This document shows, in pieces, positions 45,491 through 58,988 of a stretch of 64,000 nucleotides of DNA (positions are counted from its first letter, which is position 1; the number at the start of each line of letters is the position of its first letter). The notes beneath the pieces are model-generated. The model did not search any database. It was not told where the DNA came from and worked only from the letters and a program-made list of their open reading frames with translations. The position numbers and the translations under genes were made by a program. Source of the DNA: Candidatus Edwardsiibacteriota bacterium (GTDB lineage Bacteria; Edwardsbacteria; AC1; EtOH8). The stretch is from assembly GCA_020053305.1 (NCBI GenBank), contig JAGVNJ010000067.1, positions 1-64,000 of the forward strand, read 5' to 3'.

Positions 45491-46288
45491 TCAGCATTCC
45501 CGGATCTTTCCGCTCCAGAAGTGGTCCAGCGGGCCGAAGCCGTGGCCGATGCCGACCGAATTTTTTATGCAGCCGGTGACATACTTTTTGGCCTCGGCGA
45601 TGGCCTGCTCCAGCTTCAACCCGCGGGCCAGGCAGGCGGTGATGGCCGCCGAATAGGTGCAGCCGGTGCCGTGGGTGTTGGAGGTGTCGATCCTTTCGCT
45701 CTCGTAGGTTTTAAAAGCCCGGCCGTCGAAATACAGATCGGTGGCCCGGCCCGGCAGGTGGCCGCCCTTGATCAACACGGCCCTGGGGCCCAGCATCGAG
45801 ATCTTCAGGGCCGCCTCCTTCATCTGATCCAAGCTTTCGATCTTCTTCATCTTGGCCAGACGCTGGGCCTCATCGATGTTGGGCGTCAGAAGATTGGCCA
45901 GCGGCAGCAGGCAGGTGATCAGCGCCTCCTCGGCTTCGGCCTTCAGCAGGGCGTGGCCGCCCTTGGCCACCATCACCGGGTCCACCACCAGCGGCGATAT
46001 CTTGTATTTCTTGATCTCGTGGGACACCTGTTCGATTATCTGGCTGTTGTAGAGCATTCCGGTCTTGGCCGCCTGGCAGCCGATGTCCTTCATCAGCACG
46101 AACAGCTGCTTGGCGATGAACTTGGGGGTCTGCTCGGCCACTCCGAAGACGCCCTGGGTGTTCTGGGCGGTCAGGGCGGTGATGACGTTGATGCCGTAGA
46201 CTCCGAAGGCGGCGAAGGTTTTGAGATCGGCCTGGATGCCGGCCCCGCTGCCGGAGTCGGAACCGGCGATGGTGAGAGCCACTTTCAT
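45491..46288 (-). CDS. thiD: Hydroxymethylpyrimidine/phosphomethylpyrimidine kinase (ThiD)
   Basis: 265 residues, the normal ThiD size. It phosphorylates hydroxymethylpyrimidine (phosphate) in thiamine biosynthesis. The N-terminus has [20 protein letters not shown], the substrate-binding part TAQNTQGV, then [15 protein letters not shown], and the anion-hole motif [20 protein letters not shown] start at ATG 46288 because it overlaps the PHP gene stop as ATGA; a longer frame upstream runs inside that gene and has unnatural, Gly/Arg-rich composition. No other thi gene and no TPP riboswitch were found nearby. Confidence 0.93.
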
Positions 46289-47085
46289 TTCTTGTTGAGC
46301 CCTTTCAGTTCGGGAATTTTGGTTAAGATGTCGGTGAAGCCGTGGGCGATGTGTTCCGCCTGGTGGGCGTCGCTGCCCAGGGTCAGCCTGGCGCCGCCCA
46401 TTTTGAGATACTCCATCACCGCCGGCAGCCCGGGATAACTCTCCTGGGGATCGTGCCGCAGGCCCGAGGTGTTGATCTCCACCATCAGGTCGCGCTGCAC
46501 CGCCCGCTCCAGTATCTTCTTGATGGGCTTTTGATATTTCTGCCAGGACATGGCGCCGTAATGTTTGAAGCCGTATTTCTTGCACAGGTCCAGATGCCCC
46601 AGGCAGTCGAACAGCCGGCTGTCGGCCAGCTTCAGCGCCTCCTGGAAATACGCCCCGTAGGCCTGCTCCTCCTCCATCCGCCCGAAGTATTTTTTGGCCA
46701 GCTCGGGCCAGGAGACATCGTCGGTCCCCACCATGTGCACCGAGCCCATCACGAAGTCGAACTTGTAGGAGTTGATGAATTTTTCGATCTGGTCGCGGTA
46801 CTGCGGCTGATAGGTGATCTCCACCCCCTTGTAGATCTTGAGATGCCTGCCGGCCATCACCCGGCAGTCGGCCAGGCTGGACTCGATGGCCCTGTCGTCG
46901 TAGACCCCGTAGCCCTGGTCGGTGGGATCGAAATCCACGTGCTCGGTGAAGACCAGCGCCTTAAGGCCCAGCTCCATGGCCCGGCGGCAGGCCGCGGCCG
47001 GCTCCATTTTGGAGTCGCAGGAATGCTTGGTGTGCAGGTGAGTGTCTATGTCGCCGATCTGGTATTTTAATATTTCGGGGTTCAC
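46285..47085 (-). CDS. PHP-domain phosphoesterase, HisK/histidinol-phosphatase type
   Basis: A 266-residue PHP protein. Metal-binding histidines appear in [33 protein letters not shown] and [11 protein letters not shown]. The length and the order of motifs match the histidinol-phosphatase HisK family, which hydrolyses L-histidinol phosphate. No other his gene is nearby, so another phosphoester may be the substrate. The start is GTG at 47085, overlapping the lipoprotein stop as GTGA; the stop overlaps thiD by 4 bases. Confidence 0.85.
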
Positions 47086-48769: not shown

Positions 48770-50524
48770 TTATCTGCCCCCCCCCAACATCTCCAGCACC
48801 CGAGGATCCTCCTTAAGGCCGTTCCTCACCGCGGTATGATAGTACTCTAAAGCCCGTTCCCGGTCGCCTATGGAATAATACAGAAAGGACAGGTGATACA
48901 GGTTCTTGCTGTCATCCGGTGAGATCTGGTGGGCCTGAAGCAGATATCTCTCGGCTTTGACCCAGTCGCCTTTTTTCAGGTAGAGATATCCCAGGTTATC
49001 GGCCCCCTCGGCCTTGTCCAGCCCCAGTTCGACGGCTTTCAGAAATTCGGATTCGGCCAGATCGGGCCGGCCGGCGTTGAGATAGACCAGCCCCAGGGTG
49101 TTGCGCATCCCGGCGTTGCCGGGATATTTGTCCAGCAAATCAAGGGCCAGCTTCTCGGCTTTCTGGTATTCCCCCTTATTGAGATAGAGCAGGCAGAGAT
49201 CGTTGTAGGCGGTGTAATGTTCGGGATTGAGCCCGAAGGCAATGATGAATTCCTTTTCGGCCAGATCCGCTTTCCCCAGATTGGCGTAACTGCGGCCCAG
49301 GATGGTATGGGCCACATAGGAATGAGGGGAGACCTCAGTGGTCTTTTTCCAGTGGGCCAGGCCGCTCCGGAAACTGCGGCTGTAGGACAGGTTGATCCCG
49401 GCAAAGAAAATGAAGATCAATATCATGATGATGCCGACTACTGGGACCGGCATCCGCTTCAGCTTATCTGGATCCAGCTGCAGCAAACTGACGGCAAAGC
49501 CGGCCAGCGGCAGGTACAGCCGGTGCTCGGCAAAGTTGGCGTAGGTGGTATTCCCCAAAAACGTAGGAGCCAGAAACAACAGAAACCAAAATATTCCGAA
49601 CAAAAACAGCTTTTTGTTTTTTACCTTTAGGTAGAATATCAAGGCCAGCAGAAAGGCCAGCCCGGCTATCCCGTAAGCCACCGGCAGGTCGGCCGGAATG
49701 GGGTCGCCGGAAAGGTTTATCGGGAAGAATATCTTGCCGATATAGCTTAAGAATCCGACCAGGCTTTCCCTAACGGTGTTCATCCTGGCGTTGGTCATGC
49801 CGGAAGATTCGCTCAGGGCCGATGCCCTTAGCAGCAGATAGGCCCCAACTGCCGTTACCCAGCCCACTATCGAAAGAAAGAATTTTTTATCGAATACCTT
49901 TTCGCTCTTATCCCACTGCAGGAATAAATAAAAGATAAGCAGGACCGGCAATAAAACGGCGGTCTCCTTGGTCAGCAGGGCCAGGGAAAAGGAAAGGATA
50001 TGCAGCAGTCCCCACAGAATGCGCCCTCCCCGCCGGTAATTCAAAAAGCAAAGGGTTGACAGCAGCACAAATACCGTCAGCAGGGAATCGTTGCGGCCCG
50101 GTATCCAGGCCACCGCCTGGATCAGCACCGGATGGATGGCAAACAACAGCGCGGCTACCAGGGCTGCAGTTTTCTCCGTTTTCATGGTTTTAAGGAACAG
50201 GTACAGCAGACAGCAGGCCAGCAGATGGATCAGGATATTTCCCAGATGAAAGATGAACGGCCGGGTGCCGCCGATAAGAGTATCGGCCATGAACGACAGG
50301 GTCAGCGCCGGCCGGTAGTAGATCCCACGGTTCCCCCATACCACATCGGTGGCGAAGGCCTTCAAAATGTTGGCCGGGTCCTTCAGAAAACGGGCCTTCT
50401 CCACCAGCAGCTCCACATCATCGTGGCTGCTGAAATCGTAAAAAATCGTCTGGCCGTAGATGGCAATGACCAGCAGGGATATCAGCAGGTAAGGAAAGAA
50501 ATGATGTTGGTATATCTTATTCAT
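48770..50524 (-). CDS. TMTC-like membrane protein with C-terminal TPRs (GT-C fold candidate)
   Basis: 584 residues. About ten membrane segments occupy residues 10-385 and at least five TPR units fill 400-584 (YVAHTILGRSYANLGKADLA, AYNDLCLLYLNKGEYQKAEK). The first loop has the acidic pair in SSHDDVELL (Asp35-Asp36), followed by YYRPALTLSF, FHLGNILIHLL and HPVLIQAVAWIPGRND (131-146). These match the signatures of eukaryotic TMTC proteins (family GT105 O-mannosyltransferases), so a membrane mannosyltransferase is possible; activity is inference. It is a tandem paralogue of the next gene, overlapping it by 8 bases. Confidence 0.75.
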   Translation of the reverse strand: MNKIYQHHFFPYLLISLLVIAIYGQTIFYDFSSHDDVELLVEKARFLKDPANILKAFATDVVWGNRGIYYRPALTLSFMADTLIGGTRPFIFHLGNILIHLLACCLLYLFLKTMKTEKTAALVAALLFAIHPVLIQAVAWIPGRNDSLLTVFVLLSTLCFLNYRRGGRILWGLLHILSFSLALLTKETAVLLPVLLIFYLFLQWDKSEKVFDKKFFLSIVGWVTAVGAYLLLRASALSESSGMTNARMNTVRESLVGFLSYIGKIFFPINLSGDPIPADLPVAYGIAGLAFLLALIFYLKVKNKKLFLFGIFWFLLFLAPTFLGNTTYANFAEHRLYLPLAGFAVSLLQLDPDKLKRMPVPVVGIIMILIFIFFAGINLSYSRSFRSGLAHWKKTTEVSPHSYVAHTILGRSYANLGKADLAEKEFIIAFGLNPEHYTAYNDLCLLYLNKGEYQKAEKLALDLLDKYPGNAGMRNTLGLVYLNAGRPDLAESEFLKAVELGLDKAEGADNLGYLYLKKGDWVKAERYLLQAHQISPDDSKNLYHLSFLYYSIGDRERALEYYHTAVRNGLKEDPRVLEMLGGGR

Positions 50525-52373
50525 TGCTGCCTTGGCGTTGCATCTTTAGATTATTTTCCATGAACTGGTTCCGGGGACAGCCCCGATCCAGCGCTTTTTG
50601 ATACTGACTCCGGGCTTGGTCTGTTTCCCCAACAACCAGGTACAGCTGGGCCAGATGCAGGTTTATCATCGGATCCCGGGGAGAAATTTCCAGTGCTTTT
50701 ATCAGTTGAATCAAAGCTTCATCATATTTTTTTGATTGGGTGAGTACAAGGCCCAGGTTATGGCGCGCCCCGGCGTTGTTGCCGTCTATGGCCAGCGCCT
50801 GCCGGAGGAAGATCTCCGCCGAATCCGGCACTCCCAACTGCAGGTACAGAACGCCCAAGTTGACCATCGGGTCGGCCCGCTGCGGCTCAAGCTCAATGGC
50901 TTTGAGAAGTTCGTTTCGGGCTTCGGACAATAGCCCTCGGTTGAAATATACCAGCGCCAGGTTATTATGAACATTGGCGAATTTGGGATCTATCTCCAGC
51001 ACCTTTTTGAATTCCATCTCGGCCGAACGCAGATCGCCTATTTCCAGATAAAGAAGAGCCAGGTCATTGTGGGCCGAAATCCCGCTTTCTAGATCTAATG
51101 ATCTGATATATTCCCGGCGGGCCTCCTCCATCCGGCCGGATTTAAAATGCATCCGTCCCAGCATCTGGTGGGCCAGAGCAGAGCGGGGGGAGGTTTTGAC
51201 GGCATTGCTCCAGAAGCGGTTGCCGTCGGAAAAGACTCCAATATGATTGAAGGTCATGGCCCCGAAAGAAAGGATAACGACTGCCCCGAACGCGGTCATC
51301 CCTTTATCCGGAATATTTCTGAGGAGATTGCTTTCCGCCAGGATCAATATGATGCCCAGCATCGGCAGATACAACCGGTGTTCCAGAAAATTGATGGAGC
51401 TGGATACCGGAATGAAGGTGGGCAATAGAAAAAGAACGAACCAGAAAGCCCCGAAAATAAAATTCTTTTTATTGCTGATGCCTCTCAACCAGACGATCAT
51501 TACCAGCAAGGCCAGCCCGGCCATTCCGTAGAGCAGATTAATGTCCCCGGAAAGCGGAAGCACCGACAGGTTGAACGGCAGGAATATCTTTCCGATATAT
51601 GAAAGCAAGCCGGCGACGACATCCGCCGCACCCGCATATTGACGGGAGGAATAGGCCCGTTCCATCCCCAGGGCCAGTGCTCGCAAGAAAAGCCACGCAA
51701 TTGTGATGGCCGCCCAGCCGGGCGCCAATGCTTTCCAGGATCCTTTGAATTTCCCTTTTAAAACCAGATACGGCAGAAACAGCATCGGAACAAAAACCGC
51801 CGCCTCCTTGGTGAACAGGGCCGCCAGCCAAGCCGCAAAATGCATTGCCAGCCAGGTCTTGCTTCGCTGGCCGGAATATTTTATCAGGGCGATAAAGGCC
51901 GACAGGATAAAGATCGCCAGCAGCACATCGTTGCGGCCCGGTATCCAGCCTACGGCTTGGGATAGGGCCGGGTGCACCGCAAATAATCCGGCAAAGATAA
52001 AGGATAGTCCTTTGCGATAGTTCAGGGCATTCAGGCAGACGAACAACAACCAGCAGGCCGCGATATGCAACAAGATATTGCTTAGGTGATAGATGAAGGG
52101 CTTCTCTCCGCCCAAGGCATGGTCCAGCATGAATGACAGGCTTAAAAGCGGGCGATAGTAGGTCCCGGGGCTCTTCCAGTAGACATCGGTCTTGAAGGCT
52201 TTGATAGCATTGGAAAAATTGCCGATATTCTCCCGGTTCTCCCGGATGAGATGAACGTCATCCAGCGAGGTAAACCCGAAGCCCAGCGTCTTGGCATACA
52301 GGGCCAATACCGCCAGGGCCAGCCACAAGTATGGGGCCGGCCCGGTCAGGAATATTTTTTTTATCTTTTCCAA
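50517..52373 (-). CDS. TMTC-like membrane protein with C-terminal TPRs (GT-C fold candidate), paralogue
   Basis: 618 residues with the same layout as its neighbour: LDDVHLI (Asp38-Asp39) in the first loop, YYRPLLSLSFMLDHALGG, YHLSNILLHIAACWLL, HPALSQAVGWIPGRND, about ten membrane segments, then TPRs (AHNDLALLYLEIGDLRSAEM, VHNNLALVYFNRGLLSEARN, ARHNLGLVLTQSKKYDEALI). The gene pair probably arose by tandem duplication, but the proteins have clearly diverged. It sits just before the phosphomannomutase gene in the DNA, which could supply the mannose donor pathway (inference). Confidence 0.75.
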   Translation of the reverse strand: MEKIKKIFLTGPAPYLWLALAVLALYAKTLGFGFTSLDDVHLIRENRENIGNFSNAIKAFKTDVYWKSPGTYYRPLLSLSFMLDHALGGEKPFIYHLSNILLHIAACWLLFVCLNALNYRKGLSFIFAGLFAVHPALSQAVGWIPGRNDVLLAIFILSAFIALIKYSGQRSKTWLAMHFAAWLAALFTKEAAVFVPMLFLPYLVLKGKFKGSWKALAPGWAAITIAWLFLRALALGMERAYSSRQYAGAADVVAGLLSYIGKIFLPFNLSVLPLSGDINLLYGMAGLALLVMIVWLRGISNKKNFIFGAFWFVLFLLPTFIPVSSSINFLEHRLYLPMLGIILILAESNLLRNIPDKGMTAFGAVVILSFGAMTFNHIGVFSDGNRFWSNAVKTSPRSALAHQMLGRMHFKSGRMEEARREYIRSLDLESGISAHNDLALLYLEIGDLRSAEMEFKKVLEIDPKFANVHNNLALVYFNRGLLSEARNELLKAIELEPQRADPMVNLGVLYLQLGVPDSAEIFLRQALAIDGNNAGARHNLGLVLTQSKKYDEALIQLIKALEISPRDPMINLHLAQLYLVVGETDQARSQYQKALDRGCPRNQFMENNLKMQRQGSNE

Positions 52374-52395: not shown

Positions 52396-53742
52396 TCAGG
52401 AGCGGATCAAATTCAATAATTCGGCGGATTTATCCTCCAGCAGGGCTTTTGAATTGGCCTCCACGTTAAGCCTCAGCAGCGGCTCGGTGTTGGAGGGCCG
52501 GATATTGGCCCACCAGTCCTTGTAGGAGACCGTCAGTCCGTCCAGGTGATCCAGCTCGGCTCCCTTGTTTTTATAGATGCTCTCCAGCTCGGCCAGCTTG
52601 GCCGGGATGTCCTCCACCTGGCTGTTGGTCTCGTTGATCCGGTGATAGGGGTCGATCTCGGCCACCAGCTCCGACAGCGGCTGGCCCTCCTCGGAGATCA
52701 GCTGCCAGCATACCAGGAAGGCTATCAGCCCGGAGTCGGCGAACCAGAAATCACGGAAGTAAAAGTGCCCGGAATGCTCGCCGCCGAAGATGGCGTTCTC
52801 CTGGCGCATCAGCGGCTTGATCAGAGCGTGGCCCACCCGGCTGCGGATGGATTTGCCGCCGGCCCTGGCCACCGTCTCCGGCACGCAGCGGGAGCAGATG
52901 GCATTGTACAGCACGGTGGAGCCGGGCTTCTTCTTGAGCAGCATCTTGGACACCAATCCGGCGATGTCCGACCCGCCCAGGGCCCGCCCCTTCTCGTCTA
53001 TCAGGAACATCCGGTCGGCGTCGCCGTCGAAGGCCGCGCCGAAGTCGCACTTCTCGGCCACCACCTTGGCCTGCAGGGCCGCGATATTCTCCGGCTCGAT
53101 GGGGCTGGCCGGGTGGTTGGGAAAGCTGCCGTCCAGTTCGAAGAACAGCGGGATCAGTTCGCCCGGCAGCTTGGCGAACAGCGGGGGCACGGTCTGCCCG
53201 GCCATGCCGTTGCCGGCGTCCACCGCGATCCTGTAGGGCTTGATCTTGGCGGGATCGATAAAAGTCAGGCAGTGGTTGATGTAGGCCTCGCTTACATCCC
53301 TGGCGGCGATGGAGCCTTTGACGGCGTTATCTTTCAGCTGGCCCTGATTGATCAGGTCCCGCATCTGGCTTAAGCCCTCGTCGCCGGAGAGCGGGATGGC
53401 GTCCTTTTTGCAGATCTTCAGGCCGTTATATTCCTTGGGATTGTGGCTGGCGGTGATCATTACCCCGGCCTGGTAGCCGTATTTGCCCACCGCAAAATAC
53501 AGCCCGTCGGTGGAGACTTTGCCCAGGTCCACCACATTGGCCCCCTGGGCGGTGATGCCATCGGCCAGGGCCGCAAAAACGGCATCGGACGAAGTGCGCA
53601 TATCGCGGCCCACCGCTACCTCCTGGCATTCCAGGTGATCCACCAGGGCCCGGCCTATTTCACGGGCCTGGTTTTCGTCCCACTCGGTGGGAAATATTCC
53701 GCGGATATCGTAGGCCTTGAAAATTTTCGGATTGACCGCCAT
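52396..53742 (-). CDS. Phosphomannomutase/phosphoglucomutase (ManB/AlgC type)
   Basis: A 448-residue alpha-D-phosphohexomutase. The start VNPKIFKAYDIRGIFPTEWD is typical; the phosphoserine loop is TASHNPKEYNGLK, the metal loop DGDADRMF, the sugar-binding loop GEHSGHFYF and the phosphate-binding loop RPSNTEPLLRLN. It interconverts 6- and 1-phosphates of mannose and glucose, feeding GDP-mannose or UDP-glucose synthesis for the glycan loci. The upstream spacer of 28 bases borders the decayed sorting-domain gene. Confidence 0.93.
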   Translation of the reverse strand: MAVNPKIFKAYDIRGIFPTEWDENQAREIGRALVDHLECQEVAVGRDMRTSSDAVFAALADGITAQGANVVDLGKVSTDGLYFAVGKYGYQAGVMITASHNPKEYNGLKICKKDAIPLSGDEGLSQMRDLINQGQLKDNAVKGSIAARDVSEAYINHCLTFIDPAKIKPYRIAVDAGNGMAGQTVPPLFAKLPGELIPLFFELDGSFPNHPASPIEPENIAALQAKVVAEKCDFGAAFDGDADRMFLIDEKGRALGGSDIAGLVSKMLLKKKPGSTVLYNAICSRCVPETVARAGGKSIRSRVGHALIKPLMRQENAIFGGEHSGHFYFRDFWFADSGLIAFLVCWQLISEEGQPLSELVAEIDPYHRINETNSQVEDIPAKLAELESIYKNKGAELDHLDGLTVSYKDWWANIRPSNTEPLLRLNVEANSKALLEDKSAELLNLIRS

Positions 53743-55925: not shown

Positions 55926-56033
55926 GAACCATTGGTTGGTTGGTGGACTCTAATCAATATAATAAATATCAAACGATATTTAACGCCTTGTTCGCTATGG
56001 ATTTAACCTCATGGGTGGATATTGATATCCGCC

Positions 56034-56062
56034 GGAACTTTTCAGCAACAAAATTACTCTAA
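56034..56062 (+). promoter_or_regulatory. Candidate ECF-type promoter upstream of the sigma factor gene
   Basis: GGAACTT (56034-56040), a 16-base spacer, and CTCTAA (56057-56062) follow the ECF/sigmaE pattern of GGAACTT-N16-TCTAA. It lies 20 bases before the ATG of the sigma gene, giving a leader of about 13 bases. It would allow autoregulation. Confidence 0.5.
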
Positions 56063-56081
56063 CCTACAGATAATCGATAAT

Positions 56082-56609
56082 ATGCCTGAAAAACAGCGGC
56101 TGGAATTTGAAGAAGTTCTGGATAAATACGGGCAGAAGCTGTTCAATCTGATGCTCCGGCTGACCGGCAACTACCACTGGGCCCAGGACCTGACGCAGGA
56201 TGTTCTTTTGATAGCCCATCGCGAATACCACAAGTTCCGGGGGGACTCCGATGTCTTCACCTGGATATACCGCATCGCCGTCAACCATCACCGCCGGCAG
56301 GCTCGCAAGATGCGGGTCCGAAGCTGGCTGGGCTTCGAGGATGTCTCCAGCGAGGTGTTGTCCACCGATATTACGGCTGCCGACCCGGCCGAAAGCAGCG
56401 AAAGGACCAAGGTGGTGGCCCGGGCGGTATCCGCTCTGCCGGAGGACTTCAAAGAGACCGTGGTGCTGCATTATTTTCAGGACCAAAGCTGCGAACAGAT
56501 CGCCAAGATAATGGATTGCTCGGAGGGAACCGTAAAATCAAGACTATGGCGGGGCCGGAAGATCCTGGCCCAGAAACTAAAAGGTTATATATCTGAAACA
56601 GGAGTGTGA
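56082..56609 (+). CDS. ECF-type RNA polymerase sigma factor
   Basis: 175 residues from the ATG at 56082. Region 2 is clear (FNLMLRLTGNYHWAQDLTQD, then FRGDSDVFTWIYRIAVNHHR) and region 4 has the helix-turn-helix LHYFQDQSCEQIAKIMDCSE and GTVKSRLWRGRKILAQKL. No region 1.1 or 3 is present, as usual for ECF factors. It would direct RNA polymerase to envelope-related promoters, held inactive by the anti-sigma factor encoded 4 bases downstream. An upstream ATG at 56022 would extend the protein over the candidate promoter and has no homologous look. Confidence 0.92.
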   Translation: MPEKQRLEFEEVLDKYGQKLFNLMLRLTGNYHWAQDLTQDVLLIAHREYHKFRGDSDVFTWIYRIAVNHHRRQARKMRVRSWLGFEDVSSEVLSTDITAADPAESSERTKVVARAVSALPEDFKETVVLHYFQDQSCEQIAKIMDCSEGTVKSRLWRGRKILAQKLKGYISETGV

Positions 56610-56613
56610 TAAA

Positions 56614-57312
56614 ATGAATTGCCAAAAAATTGAAGAACATCTGCGGGAAAATCCCGGGGCCCCGTTGCCTAGGGAACTGCAGGAACATATAGCCCAATGC
56701 CCGGCCTGCTCTTTGTTGTGGCGGGAGCAGCAGGCCTTGAACGATATTCTGAAAGCATTTCCCCAGGTGGAACTTCCGGCCTACCTAGGCGCCAAAGCCT
56801 TGTCCCGGCTGGAGGGCCGGCAGAGGGTCTCCGGCAAAAAGCTGCTGGAGCCGGGCTGGTTGACCCTGGCCGCCCCGGCCATGGCCCTGATCGTGGCTTT
56901 TACCGCCCTGGTGATGCGTTACGAATATAGCCATCAATATGCAGACATTCCGAACCGCTCGGTATCTGTCCAGAACCAGGGCAACAATAACGCCGCTCCG
57001 GGGTCTGTCCAAAATAAACCATCAAATATTTTATCTCAGATATACCCGGTCTGGCCGTCCGACCAGGATGTGGTGGGCCGCGAGGACCTTACCATCATGG
57101 CCTCGCTGTATCCCGACCATCCGGGAAAGGTGCAGGTCCTGCTGGACGATATTGATGTCTCGGCCGGATCGACCATCAGCCGTCAGCATATCTTCTATGA
57201 CCCCAAATCCCTGGGGGCCGGAGAACATATGGTCAGGGTAGTGCTGCAGCAGGCTGACGGAAGCTATCAAACGGCCAGCTGGAGCTTCTACCTGTTGGAG
57301 GAACCATCATGA
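56614..57312 (+). CDS. Anti-sigma factor, zinc-finger (ZAS/zf-HC2) type, with periplasmic Ig-like domain
   Basis: 232 residues. The cytoplasmic anti-sigma domain has the H-x3-C-x2-C motif at His25, Cys29, Cys32 (EHIAQCPAC) plus Cys3. One membrane segment lies at 81-101. The periplasmic part ends in an Ig-like domain (VLLDDIDVS 175-183, HIFYD 192-196, GEHMVRVV 203-210, WSF 223-225) that aligns, with the same spacings, with residues 69-120 of the outer-membrane protein at 54147. It should hold the sigma factor at the membrane until a signal arrives. Its stop overlaps the next start by 4 bases. Confidence 0.88.
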   Translation: MNCQKIEEHLRENPGAPLPRELQEHIAQCPACSLLWREQQALNDILKAFPQVELPAYLGAKALSRLEGRQRVSGKKLLEPGWLTLAAPAMALIVAFTALVMRYEYSHQYADIPNRSVSVQNQGNNNAAPGSVQNKPSNILSQIYPVWPSDQDVVGREDLTIMASLYPDHPGKVQVLLDDIDVSAGSTISRQHIFYDPKSLGAGEHMVRVVLQQADGSYQTASWSFYLLEEPS

Positions 57313-58988
57313 AAAAGATGCATTTAATACTGATCCCCTGGCTGCTGATATCATCGGCAGCCCTGCAGGCCGCCGGGCTTCAGGTCTCGCCTAATCCGGC
57401 AGAGGTCCAGGTCAATACTGTCGTTGCCTTCACCGTCCAGGGTCTGGAGCCGGGTGGGTCGTTAAACTGGGAGGTCATTCCGGCCACTCTGGGAAATATT
57501 GACCAAAGCGGACTTTTCACCGCATCGGTCAAGCCTGGCCGGGGAATGATAAGAGCCATAGCCAAAAACAAGGATGGCCGGGCCACGCTGGGACACGCCA
57601 TGATAAAAGTTTTAGGGAACAAATCGGTCCGACTTACGGTATCGGTATCGCCTACCAGGGCCGAGACCAAGATCGGCGAAACCCTGCGTTTTGCGGCCCG
57701 GATTATACTGCCAGATGAAAATATCAAAACCGAATGGCTGGTCATCCCCAATGATCTGGGAAGCATAGATGCCCAGGGCAATTTTATGGCCACCGGCACC
57801 GGGAAGGGCCGGATTGTGGTAATTGCCAAAGGAACGGGAAAGTATGGTTTGGGTCAGGCCCAGTTAAATATTTTACCTTCCGGCAAAGCCTCAAGCCTGT
57901 CGGTGGTTGTTTCACCTAAAAGAATCAAACTGCAGCCGAAAAACCGGATCCGGCTGGCCGTTCAGGTCCAGGACCCGGAGGGCCAAACCGTCAGAGCCAG
58001 ACTCAGATACACCCTGTCTCCCCCGGAGCTGGGAACCATCGACCAGGACGGAAATTTTACCGTCGGAGAAAAGGCCGGACTGGGGATTATCAAGGTTGAG
58101 GCCGCTTCCGGATACGCCTTGGGCAGCGACCGGGTCTTTGTCATAGTCTCCGAAAAAAGCAGCCGCTATCAGATAAAGCTCAAACCTCGCCAGATGGTAA
58201 TGGAGGCCAGATCAAGTGCCAAATTCGAGGTTGAGGTATGGGACGAAAACGGCAGCCCGGTGATCCCGCCAGCCCTGGACTGGAAGGTGATCCCCGAGGG
58301 CCTGGGTTCGATCACCCCCCTGGGGCTGTTCACTGCTGGAGACCGGATACTGTCCGGCAAAATTGTGGCCCAGCTGCCGGCCGAATTCGGCCGGGGTCAG
58401 GATGTTGCCTCGGTCAAGATACAAAGCAAGGATCGGAGGACCATCCGGATAAACCCGCCCAAGGCCAGCCTGAAGCCGGGGCAGATGATGCAATTCTCGG
58501 CCGCCATAAGCGACAGCCGGGGCAAGCCGGCCGGAGATCAGCGCATCACCTGGAAGCTTCAACCGGATAACCTCGGCATCATCACCCCCCAGGGACTGTT
58601 TACTGCCGGAGCGGCAGCCCGGTCGGGCTTGGTCATCGCCGAACTTCCTCCGGAATTCGGAGCCACCCGGGCCATCGCTCCGGTCGTCATCAGCAGCTAC
58701 CAGATCAAGATCTCCGCCCCGCCCAATCAATATAACATCCACACCGGGGAGCAGGTCACCTTTGCCGCCTCGGTGCGGGATGCCAACGGGAACGACCTGA
58801 GCAGCTCGGCCGTCTTCGAATGGGAGGTGAAATCAACGGCCTCCGGTTTCGGCACCATCAACAGCTCATCAGGATTATTCAGTGCCGGTCACCCGGCCAA
58901 GCTTCCGGCCGATGGCTACATCATGGTCCGGGTTTCCATCAACGGACTGCCGGCGGGAACCGATGGCATAAAAATAACCATTAGATAA
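57309..58988 (+). CDS. Secreted Ig-like repeat protein (six repeats)
   Basis: 559 residues with signal peptide (LILIPWLLISSAALQAAG) and six repeats of about 80-90 residues, each with a conserved turn: LGNIDQSGLFTA, LGSIDAQGNFMA, LGTIDQDGNFTV, LGSITPLGLFTA, LGIITPQGLFTA and FGTINSSSGLFSA. These are Big-like/bacterial Ig domains common in surface adhesins and stalk-like proteins. There is no sorting domain, lipobox or barrel at the C-terminus, so it is either periplasmic or released. It is translationally coupled to the anti-sigma gene and is probably a partner or target of the signalling module. Confidence 0.82.
   Translation: MKKMHLILIPWLLISSAALQAAGLQVSPNPAEVQVNTVVAFTVQGLEPGGSLNWEVIPATLGNIDQSGLFTASVKPGRGMIRAIAKNKDGRATLGHAMIKVLGNKSVRLTVSVSPTRAETKIGETLRFAARIILPDENIKTEWLVIPNDLGSIDAQGNFMATGTGKGRIVVIAKGTGKYGLGQAQLNILPSGKASSLSVVVSPKRIKLQPKNRIRLAVQVQDPEGQTVRARLRYTLSPPELGTIDQDGNFTVGEKAGLGIIKVEAASGYALGSDRVFVIVSEKSSRYQIKLKPRQMVMEARSSAKFEVEVWDENGSPVIPPALDWKVIPEGLGSITPLGLFTAGDRILSGKIVAQLPAEFGRGQDVASVKIQSKDRRTIRINPPKASLKPGQMMQFSAAISDSRGKPAGDQRITWKLQPDNLGIITPQGLFTAGAAARSGLVIAELPPEFGATRAIAPVVISSYQIKISAPPNQYNIHTGEQVTFAASVRDANGNDLSSSAVFEWEVKSTASGFGTINSSSGLFSAGHPAKLPADGYIMVRVSINGLPAGTDGIKITIR

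Follow-up and report, generated by a model that had tools for sequence, protein, structure and literature searches.

A gene pair downstream of a sugar-phosphate mutase

The window, by which we mean the whole 64,000-nucleotide stretch analyzed, carries on its minus strand three genes read in one direction. A phosphomannomutase/phosphoglucomutase gene (52396–53742) is followed after 22 bases by the gene for protein B (50517–52373; 618 aa, TTG start), which overlaps by 8 bases the gene for protein A (48770–50524; 584 aa, ATG start). Both reading frames lie where the original prediction had placed them, and both encode 11-helix membrane proteins with a TPR tail. In protein B, the membrane domain, predicted to be catalytic, comprises residues 1–400 (51174–52373, minus strand) and the tail approximately residues 384–618 (50520–51224, minus strand); the tail of protein A, located by Pfam TPR matches, spans approximately residues 400–580 (48785–49327, minus strand). 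Protein A scores above the Pfam cut-offs for PMT_2 (45.3 bits, cut-off 26.1) and PMT (33.7 bits, cut-off 22.7) and matches TPR_2 with 66.5 bits. In protein B, Pfam recognizes the TPRs of the tail but nothing in the membrane part at E ≤ 0.1, and would thus label the protein as a TPR protein and no more. The upstream gene is, as predicted, a sugar-phosphate mutase, with all four PGM/PMM domains and PRK09542 phosphomannomutase/phosphoglucomutase as its best NCBIfam match (E = 8.4e-160; 532.7 bits, below the cut-off of 618). An Rfam scan gave tRNA as the sole match, and a promoter/terminator scan was uninformative, with 10 promoter-like sites compared with 4.9 in shuffles.

The pair had been singled out for a set of common motifs, nearly all of which we find as described. 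An acidic pair, D38-D39 in protein B (52257–52262, minus strand) and the aligned D35-D36 in protein A (50417–50422, minus strand), lies in the predicted first extracytoplasmic loop; YYRP(A/L)L(T/S)LSF and HL-x-N-IL-(I/L)-H occur in both proteins, as does WIPGRND ahead of the TPRs. The exception is the spacing of the preceding element, which is HP-x3-QAV (HPVLIQAV, HPALSQAV) rather than HP-x4-QAV. Judged on their conservation in homologs (see below), the motifs that the two proteins share are not there by chance.

Fold, topology, and conserved residues

An AlphaFold model of protein B, built on an 85-sequence alignment, has a pLDDT of 94.7 and a pTM of 0.91; the first 400 residues, modeled separately, reach 95.0 and 0.94. 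Structure comparison, which had been proposed as a check, places the modeled membrane domain in the GT-C fold. It aligns with yeast STT3 (8agb; VIA Z 22.3, 4.1 Å, 323 residues), ArnT (5f15; VIA Z 20.7, 4.3 Å, 345 residues), and Pmt4 (9i5l; VIA Z 19.9, 4.2 Å, 336 residues), followed by Pmt1-Pmt2 (6p25; Z 19.5) and PglB (3rce; Z 18.8). Z was at least 8 for 58 of the 998 chains aligned, and the 50 matches listed are all GT-C-fold chains, by class names that we in part assigned ourselves. With Z values so similar, the comparison does not discriminate between GT-C functions. TMTC chains are not among the structure matches listed, a result that rules nothing out. A PDB sequence profile search with the membrane domain returned nothing but an unrelated match at E 0.056, and turned up no solved structure of the human TMTCs. 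The tail of protein B forms helical repeats in the model and matches the TPR domain of OGT (1w3b; VIA Z 23.7).

The model contains 11 helices (residues 13–31, 92–116, 121–142, 144–169, 172–188, 190–205, 209–235, 280–297, 302–320, ∼331–352, and 356–381). The DD, R-x-D, KE, and E-x-R-x-Y motifs follow helices 1, 3, 5, and 9, respectively, and in the model all lie on one side of the membrane, with the loops on the opposite side bearing Lys/Arg and almost no Asp/Glu. The common side of the motif loops and the basic residues of the others together indicate that the active site and the TPR tail lie outside the cytoplasm. We therefore predict, from the model and the loop charges, 11 transmembrane helices and a non-cytoplasmic tail.

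The residues in these loops are almost invariant. Among 101 aligned homologs, D38 is found in 101 and D39 in 100 (one Glu), R74 in 99, P75 in 101, R147 in 101, D149 in 99, K189 in 101, E190 in 99, R333 in 98, and Y335 in 100. Because R-x-D and E-x-R-L-Y formed part of the retrieval patterns, those columns were to some extent selected for; the patterns did not contain the DD, RP, or KE columns. The acidic pair is thus retained in close homologs, where its loss would have counted against the original prediction. An Arg before TM10 binds the donor phosphate in the TMTC/GT-C account given in PMC7801869, and R333 is its candidate counterpart in protein B. A tail of 89–238 residues follows the membrane domain in 85 of the 85 rows of alignment A3. 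This alignment comprises the loci from named genomes without L070 (a contig-edge ORF), the L080 minus-strand ORF, and the first ORF of L092 (low identity), all of which are in alignment A2; A2 omits L027, which is the same gene as L137. Four of 97 cluster ORFs were left out for length.

Relatives, mutase neighborhood, and donor supply

A scan of named genomes gave 348 relatives among 410 pattern matches. The best 80 of these 348 were kept and come from Omnitrophota, Elusimicrobia, Patescibacteria, Bacteroidota, KSB1, Margulisbacteria, and others; none of 47 pattern-matching stretches in viral contigs held a relative. In a tree built from 36 chosen sequences, two clades separate with support of 100/100. 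Clade A holds the window pair, further copies on contigs C14, C70, C40, and C10 of the same genome, and the retrieved relatives. Clade B holds the C19 copy and those bacterial proteins whose PF08409 scores exceed or approach the cut-off. The genome itself (2.59 Mb, 99% complete) has seven GT-C/TPR copies, six of them in clade A. A profile of the membrane domain matched at E ≤ 1e-30 in 90 of 241 sampled genomes. Among the matches listed, the E-values separate into two groups, with none between 1e-99 and 1e-63; the upper group, which we take for clade A, occurs in 9 of the 241 genomes, 7 of them from the window's own family. TMTC-like proteins, taken broadly, are thus common in bacteria, whereas clade A is patchy; clade B is much commoner.

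The original prediction had also linked the pair to the mutase as a source of sugar 1-phosphate. The gene order holds up, being mutase, B, A in G001, G003, G006, and the window, mutase then A alone in G002, and mutase, two inserted genes, then B and A in G008; the mutase thus precedes the pair or one member in 6 of 10 family genomes, including that of the window. (A TAG inside the G001 match looks like the join of two neighboring genes; both G001 ORFs are intact.) The functional part of the link fares less well, since G004 and G009 keep the mutase at 74%–75% identity without a clade A neighbor, and we reject it on this ground as specific evidence for a dedicated donor enzyme. In G005, another gene adjoins the mutase on a 3 kb contig, and in G007 the contig ends soon after it. 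Within two genera the mutase neighborhood is genuine and long-standing, but it says little about function.

Linkage to GT2 glycosyltransferases is better evidence for the donor than the mutase. Across the 80 related loci (best 80 of 348), 15 of 85 clade A genes have a DPM-synthase-like GT2 gene directly upstream on the same strand, with a gap of at most 150 bases, compared with 13 of the 732 other genes (Fisher p 7e-9, with five clade A genes at locus ends left out of the count). The 15 linked genes are mostly from Patescibacteria, and 8 of them come from a single conserved block in that group, leaving about eight separate contexts; genes within a locus are also not independent, so that the p value is overstated. 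The GT2 gene overlaps the GT-C gene in 7 of the 15 cases. In the shared block, GT2 and GT-C are followed in 8 loci by a gene for the lipid II flippase MurJ (TIGR01695, E 4e-104 in the one member scanned) and then by what we take, from its sequence, to be lepA. For the six GT2 proteins scanned, the best NCBIfam matches, none of which reaches its cut-off, are to AglJ or to synthases of polyprenyl- or dolichyl-phosphate sugars. Of the GT2 proteins from other phyla, the one compared with the PDB matches ArnC at 1.3e-6 and the mannose synthase 5mlz weakly, at 8.7e-4, which leaves room for a sugar other than mannose there. The GT2-(GT-C/TPR) module in other bacteria is the notable new point of this analysis.

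The window pair has no GT2 nearby. Elsewhere in its genome, the best PDB match of two GT2 genes, on C35 (E 2.3e-34) and C10 (E 2.5e-27), is Pyrococcus dolichol monophosphate mannose synthase (5mlz); two genes downstream of the one on C10 is a further clade A copy. C35 also carries a mannose-1-phosphate guanylyltransferase gene (TIGR01479, E 1.5e-93; 314.1 bits, below the cut-off of 372.95); three genes of the PGM/PMM family are present in all. By these matches, the genome encodes a complete mannose donor route. All 10 family genomes have the C35-type GT2 and 8 of the 10 have the C10-type; the exceptions for the latter, G004 and G007, also have no clade A gene and, being of one genus, represent at most one event.

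Predicted function and comparison with known systems

From computation, we have the fold, the topology, the conservation of the motifs, the donor-making genes, and the GT2 linkage in other bacteria. These are consistent with a model, which we favor with moderate confidence, in which the proteins are paralogous GT-C transferases that use a GT2-made polyprenyl-phosphate hexose and act on acceptors selected by their TPR tails outside the membrane. The mutase would supply mannose-1-phosphate and ManC would convert it to GDP-mannose, from which a cytoplasmic GT2 would make polyprenyl-phosphate mannose, mannose being the most likely hexose. After flipping across the cytoplasmic membrane, the sugar would be transferred to the acceptor by the GT-C domain, through the acidic pair of EL1 and the Arg, Lys, and Glu residues of EL2, EL3, and EL5. 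The tail, on the same side, would pick the acceptor, most likely a secreted or surface protein, and acceptors would differ among the several diverged copies that a genome carries. OGT and TMTCs use their TPR parts in acceptor selection, and this analogy and the constant presence of the tail in the family lead us to infer the same role here. Catalysis, the flipping step, the identity of the sugar, and a protein acceptor are what this model supposes, with unequal strength. The proteins are very probably GT-C sugar transferases acting outside the membrane, and the predicted transferases almost certainly depend on a polyprenyl-phosphate sugar; if so, the acceptor is probably a protein, and, granted that too, we lean toward mannose as the sugar. 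Protein O-hexosylation is the likeliest role and mannose the likeliest sugar; O-mannosylation of Ig-like proteins, as first proposed, is plausible. The neighbors of copies in the same genome include a DUF4833 protein and, in relatives, GH18 and FG-GAP proteins with weak secretion-tail matches, which gives nothing firm on acceptors.

The same chemistry could instead serve a glycan or lipid acceptor (a cell-wall polymer, an exopolysaccharide, or a lipid A-like molecule), as in ArnT or GtrII, with the TPR tail docking to an assembly machine. We regard this as possible but the less probable reading. In its favor, one of the closest folds is that of ArnT (5f15, Z 20.7), MurJ follows GT2 and GT-C in those eight loci, and TPR domains can bind polymers, that of PgaA being reported to bind PNAG (PMC9384988). 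Against it, the protein-modifying STT3 and Pmt4 score as high as ArnT, many GT2-linked members come from Patescibacteria, most of which are not known to have LPS, and a tail in every row of A3 and several paralogs per genome suit varied protein acceptors better. The fold match also extends to PIG-U, raising a non-catalytic scaffold of the kind found in GPI transamidase; conserved catalytic and phosphate-binding columns and the GT2 linkage make this very improbable.

The headline of the original prediction, that these are TMTC O-mannosyltransferases of family GT105, proved too specific, while its main inference of GT-C enzymes was right. Seven TMTC motifs are defined in Table 4 of PMC7801869, which also states that homologs exist "even among prokaryotes." Clade A has M1 (DD), the YRP of M2, M3 (R-x-D), M4 (KE), and M7 in a shifted form (EHRLY), and these motifs, with 11 helices and a TPR tail, are what speaks for bacterial GT105 members orthologous to TMTC1-4 (motifs from PMC7801869). 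Against this, the HK positions of M2 (SHKSYRP, EL1) are variable in the 101 aligned homologs, and for the DW of M5 (EL4), in a column placed by eye, D277 is present in 90 of 101 with a next letter that is mostly T, S, I, L, M, or V (the six commonest). M6 (PxxP) is not evident. A search for DUF1736 (PF08409) gave no match in any of the 85 membrane domains from clade A (E ≤ 0.1) or in either window protein (E ≤ 0.001), and the DUF1736-positive bacterial proteins fall in clade B. At E ≤ 0.01, PF08409 matches in 13 of 241 genomes, two of them above cut-off. In the window's own genome, its one match, at E 0.07, is in the C19 copy; we dismissed this match because 5 of 14 control genomes match at the same laxness. 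With DUF1736 undetected and HK and DW missing, the window proteins are not filed in GT105, and true membership appears improbable. They likely work as TMTCs do, with a GT-C domain and an outward TPR tail.

Our literature search found no study of bacterial TMTC-like proteins; the existence of prokaryotic TMTC homologs is mentioned in PMC7801869. Speculatively, clade A could be a bacterial protein O-hexosylation system. Its module in Patescibacteria and other phyla without cultured members would consist of a GT2 polyprenyl-phosphate-hexose synthase and a TPR-tailed GT-C enzyme, joined in one lineage by a MurJ-type flippase. Multiplication in the window's family would have given several transferases, each specific for its acceptors, as a counterpart of bacterial origin to the four animal TMTCs. 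The module makes function testable in laboratory strains. If protein glycosylation is the function, many uncultured bacteria, including tiny Patescibacteria, would have an O-glycosylation system annotated merely as a TPR protein, and a bacterial comparison, free of ER complexity, would become available for acceptor choice by the TPR tails of the disease-linked human TMTCs.

Among known systems, ArnT (Cupriavidus, 5f15/5ezm) shares the GT-C fold and uses an undecaprenyl-phosphate sugar donor; its acceptor is lipid A and it is not known to have a TPR. The GT39 PMTs, with the actinobacterial and fungal O-mannosyltransferases, share the fold and the acidic pair. Pfam is divided on this kinship, with protein A above the PMT_2 and PMT cut-offs, protein B unmatched, and 71 of 85 homologs matching PMT_2 at E ≤ 0.1. 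The window proteins differ in having a TPR tail and are too distant in sequence for a PDB profile match. The clade B GT-C/TPR proteins, some with PF08409, have the same architecture and core motifs and differ in their separate branch, their much greater abundance, and an EL5 motif of ERFLYLP type that by eye is nearer to TMTC. Eukaryotic TMTC1-4, the cadherin O-mannosyltransferases of GT105, differ from the window proteins, which are bacterial, known from sequence and model, have EHRLY in place of ERxxY, and have no HK, DW, or detected DUF1736; common to both are the 11-helix GT-C domain, the DD of EL1, YRP, the R-x-D of EL2, the KE of EL3, the E/R/Y residues of EL5, and a TPR tail predicted here, too, to be non-cytoplasmic.

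Genes near the GT-C/TPR pair

Close to the genes for the two GT-C/TPR proteins, A (48770-50524) and B (50517-52373), three consecutive genes of the window (56022-58988) encode an ECF sigma factor, a possible anti-sigma factor that matches zf-HC2 weakly, and a Big_2/PKD-like protein. These genes may form a cell-surface regulon. The ThiD reading frame, listed with a GTG start as 364 amino acids (45491-46585), is compared with frames of 265 amino acids in relatives, so that the true start probably lies downstream of this GTG.

Variation in relatives and a fused enzyme

In relatives, GH18 and FG-GAP proteins, with weak matches to Por_Secre_tail/FlgD_ig, are encoded between the 54084 homologue and the phosphomannomutase/phosphoglucomutase gene (G002, a genome of the same family, L137:10068-14335); the GH18 and FG-GAP genes are absent from the window. 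G002 also lacks protein B, and a separate TPR protein (L137:5624-6934) follows protein A.

A single 849-residue open frame contains matches to both NTP_transferase and PGM_PMM (loci L175 and L182; C2:14014-15555 in the window genome), and its domain content predicts a fused sugar-nucleotide enzyme on contig C2.

The patescibacterial block

Immediately ahead of a patescibacterial block lies a protein of ∼500 amino acids (e.g., L089:5564-7084), for which searches of Pfam and NCBIfam returned no match. The block itself, comprising GT2 (a DPM-synthase-like sugar transferase), GT-C/TPR and MurJ (lipid II flippase) genes, is conserved in loci L061, L067, L069, L079, L082, L084, L089 and L094.
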